Shown here piece by piece: positions 222-6,674 of a DNA stretch of 6,674 bases. The notes under the pieces are model-generated. The model was given only the letters and a program-made list of their open reading frames with translations. It made no database searches and had not been told where the DNA came from. Positions within the stretch are counted from its first letter, which is position 1, and each line of letters starts with the position of its first letter. The position numbers and the translations under genes were made by a program. Location of the stretch: assembly GCA_937881145.1 (NCBI GenBank), contig CALGFL010000307.1, positions 1-6,674 of the forward strand. Reading direction: 5' to 3'. Source of the stretch: an uncultured Bordetella sp. (GTDB lineage Bacteria; Pseudomonadota; Gammaproteobacteria; Burkholderiales; Burkholderiaceae_B).

Positions 222-235
<14 letters not shown>
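1..235 (-). CDS. TusA/SirA-family sulfur carrier protein, 3' end outside window
   Basis: This is a small TusA-like protein, of which the first 78 residues are visible. I read it directly from the minus strand, starting at the ATG at 235-233. The family signature CPLP lies at about residues 25-28, in the context [14 protein letters not shown]. Its Cys25 corresponds to the cysteine that carries persulfide sulfur in TusA. The following segment (about 43-63: [20 protein letters not shown]) fits the beta-strand and helix of the TusA fold. TusA proteins relay sulfur in the cytoplasm, for example for tRNA 2-thiouridine formation or molybdenum cofactor synthesis; which role applies here cannot be told. 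The start codon lies within the last codons of alaS in another frame (14-nt overlap), which suggests translational coupling. No strong Shine-Dalgarno sequence is visible. The family call is firm, but paralogues such as YedF are possible. Confidence 0.87.
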
Positions 236-2840
<2,605 letters not shown>

Positions 2841-2876
2841 CGTCGACGAAGGAAAGGGAATTTAGGCGAATCTTTC

Positions 2877-2885
2877 ATTTTAGCA
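2877..2885 (-). promoter_or_regulatory. Candidate extended -10 promoter element for alaS
   Basis: Read on the minus strand, the element is TGCTAAAAT. This is a TG extension followed by a hexamer with one mismatch to TATAAT. It lies 36 nt before the alaS ATG, which predicts a leader of roughly 30 nt. TTGACC lies upstream, overlapping the pilV stop codon, but only 13 bp separate it from the hexamer. That is too short for a normal -35, so the element would have to act as an extended -10 promoter. The 8-bp palindrome GTGCGCAC (2888-2895) sits in this spacer and may be chance. No rho-independent terminator is seen between pilV and alaS, so read-through from the pilus operon is possible. Confidence 0.35.
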
Positions 2886-2897
2886 GTGTGCGCACGG

Positions 2898-3944
2898 TCA
2901 AGGGATGCACGCGTAGATGGTTCTATCAAATGAATAGCCGTTGGATGAAGCCTGCCCGGAAAGACTCACATACCTGGTTCGGGGCGGACATGAGCAGGAA
3001 CCCGTGACCGCATTGGGGGAAACGCATCCGCCGCCGAACGTCGGGACCGTATAAAAAGTCGTCGAGCCTGCGAAGCCGGTCCATACGCCGGACTGGCAGG
3101 AAAGCAGCAGCCCCTCGGGCGTGCGTCCCACCAGGCCGTTGGGGCTGCAGACGCTGCCCGGTGCGGCCTGGCCCGCTATCTGCAAATATTCGTTGGCGTG
3201 CAGGCGCTTGCCCGTCACCGATCCGGCCACGGTCAGCCCACCCTTGAGTTGCGGATCGCGTTCGTCGAAACGACGCACATATTGGGCGGCCGTGGCCATG
3301 TCCATGCCTGCCCAAAGGACCGGGGTGCCCGCCGGCAAGGCCTCGCTCGCCGATATGTAGGGATTGGGAAAGTCGAACGTCTTGCCGCGCAGCCGACTCT
3401 CGGTTCCCGCCGTGGCATGGCCGCCGTAGCCTGCGGCCGCATCGGCAAATACCGCCATGCGCATCATGTCCGGCCGACCTTGCACGTCCGACAAGGGCAT
3501 CGAGGCGTAGATCACCGCATCGACCCGGCATGCCTCCCCCGGGCAGGCCGAAGGCGCGGCCAGGCGCACCCGAGCCGTGCCGCCCATTGGCGCCGATTCC
3601 GGAAAACCCTGCGGCAGCAGGCCCTGTGACTTGAATTCGGCCAGTGTCGGCGCATGCATATCGGCGTACAAGAGCGCGCCTTGCGGTCCGACGGGCGGCC
3701 TTCCCTCGGACAGCGCGTCGAAATGGCGCTCCAGCATGCGATAGGCGGCATTGCGTATTTCCAGCATCCAGGCGCCCGTCGCGCGGGCCGCCGCGTCGTC
3801 GGCCTGGCGCATCAGGGCGGCCGCGCCCCACACCAGCAGCAAAGTCCCGATGAGCAGGGCGACGGACAGTTCGAGCAGGGCGAAGCCTTGCTGCCGCACC
3901 GGCGGCCGCGCGGATCGGCGGCCTCGCATAGCCACGGCGCGCAT
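2898..3944 (-). CDS. pilV: PilV-like minor pilin / tip adhesin of the shufflon family (type IVb pilus)
   Basis: This 348-residue minor pilin would be exported and placed at the pilus tip, where R64-type PilV selects the recipient cell. It has a basic leader of 20 residues ending in RQQG, cut before FALLE (Phe +1, Glu +5), then the hydrophobic pilin helix LSVALLIGTLLLVWGAAAL (about 26-44). The body (45-288) ends in the conserved shufflon-family stretch: LKGGLTVAGSVTG (233-245), EYLQIAGQAAPG (252-263), CSPNGLVGR (266-274) and SCQSGVW (282-288). A 60-residue tail follows (289-348) with four cysteines (C307, C317, C319, C346). It resembles the variable C-terminal tips that R64 swaps by DNA inversion. 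The ATG at 3944 lies 3 nt after the pilS stop; an in-frame ATG at 3929 is possible but would leave a 15-residue leader. No recombinase or alternative tail lies downstream, where alaS follows. The family call comes from remembered R64 PilV features. Confidence 0.88.
   Translation of the reverse strand: MRAVAMRGRRSARPPVRQQGFALLELSVALLIGTLLLVWGAAALMRQADDAAARATGAWMLEIRNAAYRMLERHFDALSEGRPPVGPQGALLYADMHAPTLAEFKSQGLLPQGFPESAPMGGTARVRLAAPSACPGEACRVDAVIYASMPLSDVQGRPDMMRMAVFADAAAGYGGHATAGTESRLRGKTFDFPNPYISASEALPAGTPVLWAGMDMATAAQYVRRFDERDPQLKGGLTVAGSVTGKRLHANEYLQIAGQAAPGSVCSPNGLVGRTPEGLLLSCQSGVWTGFAGSTTFYTVPTFGGGCVSPNAVTGSCSCPPRTRYVSLSGQASSNGYSFDRTIYACIP
3081..3099 (-). other. Shufflon sfx-like recombination site remnant inside pilV
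   Basis: On the minus strand these 19 bases read CTGCCAGTCCGGCGTATGG. The R64 sfx repeat as I remember it is GTGCCAATCCGGTNNNTGG. The two agree at 13 of the 16 specified positions and share the same reading frame, coding CQSGxW. The site falls exactly at the junction between the conserved PilV body and the variable tail, where the first sfx site lies in R64. Two of the three mismatches are synonymous third-position changes (CAA to CAG, GGT to GGC); the third is the first base, also a third codon position. No second copy was found in the window. The resemblance may therefore reflect conserved protein sequence rather than a working site. Confidence 0.5.
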
Positions 3945-3947
3945 GGC

Positions 3948-4558
3948 TCAACGCACCGTGAAAACGAAGGTGTTGCTGTCGCCCTGCGCGCACTGCGCCT
4001 GCGCGCGCGCCGCCACGTAGGTCAAGGGCGGCGTGGCCGTGCTGTCCTTGACAAGGACGGAACCGCCCACCCCTTGCACGGCGATGATTTCGGCGGAGCG
4101 CTGCATGACCGAAGCCAGGCTGGGACAGGCGGCATGGCTGACGCGGTTGAGCGTGAGGGCAAAGCCAGACCCTGCGCCGCCCGACGCGAAGGACACCGGC
4201 TCACGGTGATCACGCCGTTGCCGGAGGTTCCCGCCCCGCCCAGGCCATGCGCCACCACTGCGGCAGCTCCCGTGCCGTTGACCGACAGCACGCTGGAATC
4301 GCGCACGGCATTGGCCAGCGTGCCGGTATCGACCTCGGCATAAGGCGTGGTTCCCGCTCCCTGCGCATTGGTCTTGGTGCGGACCACGAAACGTTGCAGT
4401 TCGCGGCCGACCTCGGGCACCTTGTTCTCGATCACATAATTGCCTATGGCTGGAATGCCAATGATGGCGGCGAGCAGGATGATGGCCGCGACGATGGACA
4501 CCTCGATCAGCGAAAAGCCGCGCTGGCGCGAAATCGGACGGGGAATGGCAATGGACAT
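3948..4558 (-). pseudogene. pilS: PilS-like major type IVb prepilin, disrupted by a frameshift near 4199
   Basis: This gene encodes the main fibre subunit. The ATG at 4558 has a Shine-Dalgarno AGGAG 7 nt upstream and is preferred over the TTG at 4582. The leader is 14 residues (ending RQRG) before FSLIEVS (Phe +1, Glu +5), followed by the hydrophobic helix IVAAIILLAAIIGIPAIG (22-39). The first frame codes sensible pilin up to about S120 (GNGVITVS). After that it becomes Arg/Pro/Ser-rich and runs on to a stop at 4022. The sensible continuation is in the frame that passes VSFASGGAGSGFALTLN and ends NTFVFTVR at 3948. It carries the two cysteines (HAACPSL and AQCAQ) expected for the C-terminal disulfide loop. 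Adding one C to the AGCCGG run joins the halves into 203 residues (about 189 mature), a normal PilS size. The lesion could be a real mutation or a sequencing error. No slippery sequence is seen that would suggest programmed frameshifting. Confidence 0.82.
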
Positions 4559-4565
4559 GAAAGGG

Positions 4566-4570
4566 CTCCT
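4566..4570 (-). promoter_or_regulatory. Shine-Dalgarno site deciding the pilS start
   Basis: AGGAG on the minus strand lies 7 nt before the ATG at 4558. It is the best ribosome-binding site in the window, which suits a highly expressed major pilin. It makes the ATG at 4558 the start rather than the in-frame TTG at 4582, which lies upstream of this site. The 46-nt gap between pilR and pilS that contains it is unusually AT-rich for this region. Confidence 0.75.
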
Positions 4571-4604
4571 GGCAAATTGCAATAAAAGAAGAACTGCGTG
4601 CGAC

Positions 4605-5756
4605 CTAGCCGGAGGCGTGGAACTGCATCAGGGCACGCCTGAGTTCGTCGATGGCCGCGTAGTGCCATAAAGTCAGCCCGATCACCGCGCCGGCCGAACC
4701 CAGCAGGCACACCCAGCGCAGAACCTGCGCCTGCCGCCGCAGACGCGCCGCGGCGTGGGATTCGACGCGCAGGCGGGTCTGCTGCAAACCGTCGGCCAGA
4801 CCATGTGCCGCGCTCATGTCGGCGAGAAACCACCAGAGCTCGCGGTCGAGCAGCCCCGTGTCCAGGCTGTCCACGCCGACGATGCCCGCGTCGATGCGCG
4901 CCAGCATCGCCGCGACGTGAGCAGCCAGCCAGGGACGCGCGTTCCAGGCCAGGTTGGACAGGGCTTCGCGCAACCGGGTGTCGATATTGCCGCGCCGGCG
5001 CAACAGCACCCCGAGCATGGCCAGAAAGCGGATGGCATGGAAATCGCGATACAGCCGCCAGAATAGAAAGCGGTCCAGGCGCCCGCGCAGTCGCCCCGTC
5101 AGATTGGGCAGGCTCCAGAAGACCAGTGCCACACAGGCCGGCAACCCGAAAGCCCAGGCGGCAAGCGTGCGCCGCACGGCATGGGCCAGGGCATACAGAT
5201 TGCGCGTAACCGGCCCCAGATAATCCTCGGGCAAATTCTGGAATACCTGCTGCAGCCGCGGAACCGTGAAATACGGCACGGCGCAAAGCAGCGCGCAGGC
5301 CACGCATGCGGCGGCCAGTCCCGCCGCGGTCGTGGCGATCAGTTCGCCGCGCAAGCCGTGCATCAGGCGCGTCACATGAGCCAAATCCCGCAACACCTCG
5401 ATGAGCGCATCGCCGCCCGCTTGCTGGCCGGCGGCGATCAGCAGACATTCGTCGGCCGGCAGCACGTCCGCCCAGGCAGCAGCCAAGTCGCCGCCGGTTT
5501 CCTGGTAGCGGCGGGCCCAATGCTTCGATAGACGGCCCCGCACCGATGCCGGCCCGTAGCGCCCGGCGTCGTCTTCGAAGTGATCCAGCAAGGTCTTGCG
5601 TCCCTGCAAGGCGCGCAGTATTTCGGCCAGGTAGGCGTAGTAGTCCGCCCGCGCGGCCCTGAATCGCCAGGCGTCCAGACGCGCTTGATTGCGCAGCATC
5701 GAGCGCGACCAAGCCGCGGCCGATGCCGCCAACCACATACCGGACAACGACTTCAC
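4605..5756 (-). CDS. pilR: PilR-like inner-membrane platform protein (type II secretion F / PilC family)
   Basis: This polytopic inner-membrane protein would act as the platform on which the cytoplasmic ATPase drives pilin assembly. As called it has 383 residues. The N-terminal cytoplasmic part contains an F-domain-like stretch (about 38-140). Three hydrophobic spans follow: about 138-164 (LIATTAAGLAAACVACALLC region), about 197-217 (LAAWAFGLPACVALVFWSL) and about 345-368 (VLRWVCLLGSAGAVIGLTLW). The second F-like domain lies between the last two spans. The layout of two cytoplasmic domains and a final membrane span near the C-terminus fits the GspF/PilC fold. The position between an assembly ATPase and a pilin supports R64 PilR. 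The chosen GTG at 5756 overlaps the ATPase stop as GTGA, a coupling arrangement, with a weak GGCGGG upstream. A GTG at 5786 would add 10 residues, and an ATG at 5738 would remove 6. Sequence conservation is low, so the call leans on topology and order. Confidence 0.82.
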   Translation of the reverse strand: MKSLSGMWLAASAAAWSRSMLRNQARLDAWRFRAARADYYAYLAEILRALQGRKTLLDHFEDDAGRYGPASVRGRLSKHWARRYQETGGDLAAAWADVLPADECLLIAAGQQAGGDALIEVLRDLAHVTRLMHGLRGELIATTAAGLAAACVACALLCAVPYFTVPRLQQVFQNLPEDYLGPVTRNLYALAHAVRRTLAAWAFGLPACVALVFWSLPNLTGRLRGRLDRFLFWRLYRDFHAIRFLAMLGVLLRRRGNIDTRLREALSNLAWNARPWLAAHVAAMLARIDAGIVGVDSLDTGLLDRELWWFLADMSAAHGLADGLQQTRLRVESHAAARLRRQAQVLRWVCLLGSAGAVIGLTLWHYAAIDELRRALMQFHASG

Positions 5757-6674
5757 GGCGACGCCCGCCTGCGCGCCCAGCCGCACAAACCGAATTGACG
5801 GGCCAGCACGCGGGCATCGATCTCGCCTTGCAGCGCCTTATAGACGGCGCACAGGCTGACGGGCTTGCCGGTCATATCGGAGTCGCCCGCCGGCGTTCGC
5901 GGCAAACCGGCAAGATGGCGCATCAAGGCCGGATTGTCGCGGCGGCGTATGCAGTCGAGCAGGACTGCGTCCTCGGCAGGCTCGAACATTTCGGCCACCA
6001 CTGTGCGACCGGTGCGTCCCGACAAAGCCAGGCGGTCCAGGCCCGGGCGATTGCACGCCGGGCAGCCTGCCGGATCGCGCACCCGCAGCCGGCCGGGGTC
6101 GACATCGAACACGCGGCCGAATTCATCGGCCCAGGCACGCCAGGCCGGACGTTCGTCATGCGGATGTTCGTCGGACGGATGCCCGCCGCGCGGATGCCCG
6201 CCGCGCCACAAGACCTCGATAGGCAAGGCGCAGTCCGGGCACAGGCGTGGCAGGAGCGTCTGATAGACCAGCAGCTTGAGCACGCCCGGCGTGGCGAGGA
6301 AATCCCGCGATACGCCGATGAAGTCCGAGGCCAGGCGTTCGGGAATCATCAGCGCCGACCCGGTATGGGTGGTGGTATAGACGCTGGCGCCGCTGCCGGC
6401 CAGATCCATGAAGGCTCGGCCGGTCTCATGATCTCGCACCTCGCCGATCAATAAATCGTTCATGGCTGAACGCTTGATGGTCCGCAGCTTGGCGTCGAAA
6501 GGATGCTGCGGCTCGGCGTCCAGCGATCGGCCCACCGTGTTCTGCAAGGCATTGCCTATCAGGTACTCGACGGGATCTTCCAGCGTGATGACCTTGCGCG
6601 CCGGGTCGATGCCGCGCATCAAGGTCGCCAGCGTCGTCGATTTGCCCGAACCCACGATCCCGGCAATGACGATG
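5753..6674 (-). CDS. pilQ: PilQ-like type IVb pilus assembly ATPase (GspE/PilB family), 5' end outside window
   Basis: This is the C-terminal 306 residues of a cytoplasmic hexameric ATPase that powers pilus extension. The frame is open to the window edge, and the visible part begins just before the Walker A motif GIVGSGKS. A GTG within that motif is therefore not the start. Further motifs follow: KVITLEDPVEYLIG (Asp-box region), LLIGEVRD (Walker B) and TTTHTGSA (His box). Two CxxC pairs, CPDC and CPAC, match the metal-binding element of GspE/PilB proteins. They are 55 residues apart, against roughly 30 in typical GspE. Most of the excess is a 20-residue repeat insert (RGGHP-RGGHP-SDEHP-HDERP). 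The name follows R64, where PilQ is the ATPase; it is not the secretin PilQ of type IVa systems. The stop overlaps the preferred pilR start by 4 nt. Confidence 0.93.
   Translation of the reverse strand, partial: IVIAGIVGSGKSTTLATLMRGIDPARKVITLEDPVEYLIGNALQNTVGRSLDAEPQHPFDAKLRTIKRSAMNDLLIGEVRDHETGRAFMDLAGSGASVYTTTHTGSALMIPERLASDFIGVSRDFLATPGVLKLLVYQTLLPRLCPDCALPIEVLWRGGHPRGGHPSDEHPHDERPAWRAWADEFGRVFDVDPGRLRVRDPAGCPACNRPGLDRLALSGRTGRTVVAEMFEPAEDAVLLDCIRRRDNPALMRHLAGLPRTPAGDSDMTGKPVSLCAVYKALQGEIDARVLARQFGLCGWARRRASP
6146..6205 (-). repeat. Four-unit 15-bp tandem repeat in the ATPase gene
   Basis: Four consecutive 15-bp units lie at 6146-6160, 6161-6175, 6176-6190 and 6191-6205. The last two are identical (plus strand cggatgcccgccgcg). 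The unit at 6161 matches them at 10 of 15 positions, and matches the unit at 6146 at 11 of 15. Because the unit is a multiple of three, the repeat keeps the frame and codes RGGHP, RGGHP, SDEHP and HDERP in protein order. The identical pair suggests recent duplication by slippage or unequal exchange. Confidence 0.8.

Follow-up and report, generated by a model that had tools for sequence, protein, structure and literature searches.

The question raised by this locus is whether a pilV gene lying next to alaS, with a body/tail junction that resembles the sfx recombination sites of plasmid R64, is what is left of a shufflon. Shufflons are within-cell switches of mobile elements. The stretch of DNA analysed here, 6,674 nucleotides from an uncultured Bordetella sp. 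(the window), carries pilV in the setting of an R64-like type IVb pilus, with genes for T2SSE, T2SSF and N_methyl proteins upstream (Table 1). PilV matches the end of the Pfam profile Shufflon_N at residues 235-286 (E 7.6e-8; 32.6 bits, cut-off 27.5), while the N_methyl match at its N-terminus reaches 20.1 bits, just below the cut-off of 21.2. The CQSGVW motif comprises residues 283-288, with the end of the Trp codon at 3081. In an AlphaFold2 model (mean pLDDT 73.9), the junction falls at strands 280-284 and 287-290 and is preceded by a low-confidence stretch, 223-257. The best match among solved structures was not meaningful (E 0.15).

Table 1 Features of the pilV region in the window (all positions refer to the window).
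Feature	Position	Strand	Evidence or remark
pilV, predicted minor pilin / pilus-tip adhesin	2898..3944	-	ORF, 348 codons; Pfam Shufflon_N match
PilV body to motif, residues 1-282	3099..3944	-	66-89% identity in 18 other clade members (counted with the motif included)
Body/tail junction, third base of codon 282 plus CQSGVW	3081..3099	-	sfx-like, 13/16; edge of similarity in the clade
Tail type T1, 60 residues	2901..3080	-	in 9/19 clade members; also on unrelated bodies P0030/P0031
pilV-alaS spacer, 57 nt	2841..2897	.	similarity to relatives is back within about 10 nt past the stop (by eye)
alaS, directly downstream of pilV	222..2840	-	ORF; adjoins pilV in 22/30 relative loci
Predicted major pilin gene (pilS-like), N_methyl protein	3948..4582	-	ORFs/Pfam; two reading frames here
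pilR-like inner-membrane protein (T2SSF)	4605..5786	-	Pfam
pilQ-like ATPase (T2SSE)	5753..6674	-	ORF/Pfam; truncated by contig end

A shufflon would combine a Shufflon_N constant region on PilV with rci beside pilV, several sfx sites and alternative tail cassettes. The window has the constant region. The gene next to pilV is alaS, there is a single sfx-like site and the genome count of such sites is at control level, a single tail precedes alaS, and the tail has one match in its own genome. In full agreement with the preliminary description, we found one site, a single tail of 60 residues and an alaS gene that starts at 2840, 57 nt beyond the pilV stop. The statement that rci is missing also holds: no Rci homologue was detected at E <= 1e-3 in the window or in the draft genome, which is 77% complete and consists of 547 contigs.

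On the minus strand, positions 3081-3099 read CTGCCAGTCCGGCGTATGG, in agreement with the R64 sfx sequence GTGCCAATCCGGTNNNTGG at 13 of 16 specified positions, and scanning of both strands of the window returned no other site with three mismatches or fewer. The match had been described as lying in the CQSGxW codon register, and this was borne out by re-reading the window and the seven R64 sfx sites in NC_005014, all of which are perfect matches in that register. Each of the three mismatches of the window site falls at a third codon position. When codons for S-CQSGVW were simulated with the codon usage of the window, the mean score was 12.4/16 and the probability of 13 or more was 0.49. A DNA match of 13/16 is therefore not diagnostic of recombination. 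Among 53 pilV junctions compared (L001-L024 without L022, plus 30 loci of genus g4, probably Achromobacter; L025-L030 were left out), 20 score at least 13. Two of the g4 junctions reach 15/16, and this better match in loci without tail replacement argues against the proposal that the 19 bp are a remnant recombination site. G013 (Bordetella sp. FB-8), the genome nearest to the window, scores 11/16 at its junction even though its body is 81% identical. A search for further sfx copies, suggested earlier, yielded no excess in the draft genome, with 20 matches at three mismatches or fewer versus 17 for a control pattern. As far as its DNA match goes, 3081-3099 is rejected as a relic, since the codons alone account for that match. 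The resemblance is, on this reckoning, a by-product of conserved codons, which fits the alternative, raised at the outset, that sfx was built on a CQSGxW coding motif. In line with this, C, G and W of the motif are invariant in 22 aligned proteins, a set without P0013-P0019.

A resident shufflon could still have collapsed in place, if an ancestor had had multiple cassettes together with rci in the pilV-alaS interval and one tail had been kept. Multiple tails within a single clade and a similarity edge in the sfx register, both described below, would be in keeping with such a history. A laboratory example of a locked tail is known from TP114, where, according to the accessible part of the report (PMC9045228), deletion of rci leaves pilV on a single tail; that mutant is man-made and retains its other cassettes. 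However, the relatives of the window tell against a collapse. Thirty wide loci from 29 relatives were inspected: pilV adjoins alaS in 22, alaS lies about 7 kb off in one, and the other seven have no alaS within the stretch. None of the 30 contains a homologue of R64 Rci at E <= 1e-3, the own tail is present as one copy in 20/20 loci tested, and the gap between pilV and alaS measures 57-58 nt in the window and G013. A looser sfx pattern occurs once across the 30 relative loci, at the own junction of that locus. Chromosomal pilV-alaS pairs that have no recombinase close by are widespread. Rci-like integrases as such do occur in the genus: 14 of 15 genomes have a match, the exception being the window's own genome, and among the matches listed the one nearest to an alaS-linked pilV is about 32 kb away. 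With no trace of either Rci or additional tails in the relative loci inspected, and sfx at control level genome-wide, we consider collapse of a resident shufflon, one of the two origins first proposed, very improbable and have rejected it.

Bodies and tails were compared across relatives. Counting that of the window, protein searches returned 19 PilV proteins in which body identity to the window is 66% or higher; a second body search yielded no clade members beyond these, and a scan with the body alignment found five loci, all titled Bordetella. Window-type tails occur in 9 of the 19 (the other eight are 55-95% identical to the window tail), four tails have 85 residues and six are of other kinds. 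Among these six, the 171-residue tail of P0019 (451 aa) includes a collagen-like Gly-Pro stretch and is unlike all others seen. In a body tree of 73 rows, the 19 proteins form a single clade (support 100/98) that comprises seven tail types, while 53 of the other 54 rows carry T0, with one exception. P0010 and P0012, which have other tails, nest among rows with window-type tails, and well-supported branches force at least three changes for the window tail type. Note that the tree took 14 L loci (L016, L017, L019, L020 and L027-L029 were left out, and L001-L005 enter as protein rows) and that its rows were cut by the pattern C....W, which fixes C and W by construction; the claim of their invariance thus rests on the alignment of 22 proteins. 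L022, L025, L026 and L030 among the first 30 relative loci have no C....W beyond residue 200.

The break is abrupt. Of the 30 residues that end with the Trp, P0008 and P0010 have 29 in common, and of the next 30 they share 4; some rows stem from short metagenome contigs (3.5 kb for P0010), in which assembly chimeras are possible. Identities to the window for body and tail, respectively, are 87 and 32% for P0010, 81 and 36% for P0011, 83 and 34% for P0012, 71-77 and 27-39% for P0013-P0016, and 66-68 and 21-28% for P0017-P0019. Averaged over all 171 pairs within the clade, bodies are 75% and tails 41% identical; of the 84 pairs with a body identity of 75% or more, 42 have tails below 45%. In the sister group (P0020-P0029, 45 pairs) the corresponding means are 61 and 64%, with seven tails below 45%. 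In the genus g4 control (31 sequences, 465 pairs) they are 61 and 75%, with no pair below 50% in the tail; 31 of 36 matching genomes were used, G082, G086, G090, G093 and G099 being left out for split or partial matches, and neighbourhoods were read over 3 kb except in G017. In the protein alignments of the clade, very similar bodies stop matching after the Trp and continue into different tails, which makes the junction a genuine break in this group. An abrupt rise in divergence at 3081, with very similar bodies followed by unrelated tails, had been named beforehand as a sign of past recombination; it is present in the clade at the level of protein, DNA covering two of its members (the window and G013). 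The other proposed origin, an ancestor that never exchanged tails, is not supported, as the sister group and outgroups hold another tail type. The tail had also been called frozen; this is accurate within a cell, but, as we infer, not over evolutionary time.

The same data bear on the idea that protein conservation is all there is, with CQSGxW as a structural motif at the base of a tail that diverges fast in place. The invariant C, G and W and the sufficiency of codons for the DNA match agree with it, genus g4 and the sister group require no swap, and P0007 (body 89%, tail 55% identical to the window) exemplifies fast tail change, its T1 tail being much more diverged than its body. T0, T1, T3 and T4 tails also have Cys, Asn and Thr positions in common, whereby the step from T0 to T1 could be fast divergence. 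On the other hand, the many clade pairs with similar bodies and dissimilar tails speak against it, and one tail type is found on an unrelated body. A search with the tail alone returned ten proteins, including P0030 and P0031, whose 403-residue bodies are unrelated to that of the window: body and tail are 24 and 78% identical for P0030, and 26 and 73% for P0031. The window's T1 tail, as aligned, thus also sits on an unrelated PilV body. Furthermore, T2 tails match plasmid cassettes and no T0 or T1 tail. It is for T2 and the P0030 pair that the case for tail replacement is strongest, and there fast divergence in place is already hard to hold. Overall, we regard protein conservation alone as quite unlikely.

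Where could the tails come from? Two plasmid records matched the window tail, both from Pseudomonas (P. koreensis P19E3 p2 and Pseudomonas sp. GXZC). The database-wide E-values are 0.01 and 0.07 for a query that includes the shared CQSGVW; both matches begin at the site and span nearly the whole window tail, and against a pool of 143 tails (L027 and L029 left out) E stays near 1e-8 once the motif is removed. The cassettes are 47 and 46% identical to the window tail, and they differ from the window in being accompanied by 17 and 8 sfx-like sites, respectively, and by Rci homologues 49 and 48% identical to R64 Rci. By similarity, then, distant relatives of the window tail are found as Rci-linked cassettes on Pseudomonas plasmids. 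In the accessible part of its description (PMC6158609), the P19E3 p2 shufflon is reported to be rearranged in reads. Its 17 sfx-like cassette starts and the Rci homologue occupy 5705-10644 of the stretch examined (L121), from a record (CP027479.1) in which no cassette is annotated. On the GXZC plasmid (L122), the cassettes at 6001 (+) and 7932 (-) have about 32 first residues in common and then differ, a break inside the tail.

Other tails of the clade also lead to shufflons. The P0010 tail fits best to a cassette of an array in G195 (L111; 60% over 45 residues) that has an Rci homologue (51%) alongside; on plasmids, the P0010 tail had no match. Outside their own type, the tails of P0013-P0016 match shufflon cassettes and no T0 tail, with an additional weak match of the P0016 tail to P0019. 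The P0013 tail matched 1646 plasmid records, mostly from Escherichia and Salmonella. No source was found in the pool or on plasmids for the tails of P0017 and P0018, and the P0019 tail gave weak pool matches only; P0011, P0012, P0014-P0016 and P0019 were left out of the plasmid searches. Scans with the tail alignment produced 27 candidate stretches in genome_contigs and 95 in viral_contigs, none confirmed as a locus, and the window tail matched three of 399 genomes of the order, namely the window and two weak ones. A relative of the P0030-type body (57%) was found in G214, on a contig of 4106 bases (L110, G214:C67) with ten sfx-like sites, each of which starts a CQSGVW tail; none of the ten tails is of the window type. 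This contig, from the same family, stops before any rci is seen. In a tail tree with the Pseudomonas cassettes as outgroup, the nine T1 tails of the clade group together (94/96) and P0030 and P0031 fall outside, which fits one import into the clade. The direction of transfer would accordingly be into the clade, although with some 60 residues and unsettled bootstrap values the reverse is possible.

We favour, with a probability of roughly 0.6, the reading that pilV by alaS is a fixed single-tail gene whose lineage likely replaced its tail at CQSGxW from a mobile shufflon pool. Visiting plasmids or islands would have supplied tails to the clade, and their later spread would be due to ordinary homologous recombination in the conserved final part of the body. 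Between alleles that share a body, such recombination could move tails, and the edge seen would mark where homology ceases, whatever the position of the crossover. As similarity downstream is back so soon after the stop, just before alaS, the exchanged stretch would have its right-hand limit in the spacer and comprise little more than the tail. The diverged tail of P0007, the positions shared by T0 and T1 tails, the weak E-values of the plasmid matches and the tails without a traced source count against this reading. Alignments of P0010-P0019, P0030 and P0031 were made at the protein level, and linkage to alaS and absence of rci were established on other loci. No tail replacement in a chromosomal Rci-less PilV appeared among the literature matches listed, which comprised titles and starts of abstracts and few subscription papers.

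A recombinase could also have made the join. The Rci of a visiting shufflon would then act in trans on the chromosomal CQSGxW codons and install a cassette, and a recombinase-less chromosomal pilV would be a docking point for plasmid-made receptor-binding tails. The position of the similarity edge in the sfx register agrees with this, as does the distribution of CQSG at the junction, which is commoner in the tail-changing clade (12/19) than in the sister group (0/10) or the others (9/44), in counts that ignore descent. G013 moreover has two further PilV-like loci, which indicates that PilV-bearing elements do enter the genus, but neither has an Rci match or an sfx-like pattern over 19 kb. In sfx, the crossover is placed in a 7-bp core in the accessible part of one report (PMC9045228), and two of the three mismatches of the window fall in this core. 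The residue that precedes the Trp is common to P0008 and P0010 despite their different tails, a hint that the join lies past the core. In addition, Rci reportedly favours inversion (PMC11852207, accessible part), and a lone site is insufficient for a lasting swap. We regard action of Rci in trans as an unlikely origin of the tails. If it did occur, the adhesin of the host itself would be diversified by mobile shufflons in the course of evolution. Further PilV-like genes were seen in other pil clusters, at the two G013 loci (L112 and L113) and on a B. pseudohinzii plasmid (L163); L112 and L113 have no Rci match, L163 has no annotated integrase, and the sfx-like pattern is absent from the stretches read.

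The window resembles several known systems and differs from each of them. R64 (IncI1) likewise has a Shufflon_N protein in which body and tail meet at CQSGxW, read in the codon register of the window, and one of its cassettes, L039_28715, is a homologue of the T2 tails found in the clade. However, it has seven sfx sites and rci (NC_005014); the window lacks rci and any site besides the one at 3081-3099, it has a single tail, and no match of the window tail among R64 cassettes was reported in the tail-pool comparison. For PilV2 of PAPI-1 from Pseudomonas aeruginosa, in the accessible part of its description (PMC5297154), the C-terminal segment resembles the R64 PilV adhesins and rci is absent among ten named pil genes, but PAPI-1 is a conjugative genomic island and not an alaS-linked cluster. 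The same source reports LPS binding for the tails of R64 and PAPI-1 PilV, and tails of TP114 determine which strains get recognised, as stated in the accessible part of PMC9045228. By analogy with R64, TP114 and PAPI-1, the window tail would set what the pilus tip binds. A mobile tail pool appears to feed a switchless chromosomal adhesin, with tails replaced from lineage to lineage at the codon boundary that shufflons use. If this is true, there is a link between the recipient-recognition modules of plasmids and the way in which the pilus tip of a bacterium itself evolves. In pilV, sfx look-alikes should not be read as recombination sites unless tails are compared.

Some observations concern the state of the genes. 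The pilS-like gene, split across two frames in the window, has its matching pieces in a single frame in G013 (L050) and in L051. The split may be real decay, in which case the strain possibly lacks the pilus, or an error in the draft. The alaS-linked pilV of G014 (C1:659631-660523) consists of two overlapping pieces in different open frames, and pilV of L022 (G008) has no C....W motif in its 286-residue reading, which points to possible decay of the gene in some Bordetella. The pilV-alaS spacer, so short in the window and G013, is roughly 80 nt or longer in the other relatives compared. A TATAAT-like box, presumably a promoter, precedes alaS in these other relatives and reads TAAAAT in the window and G013.
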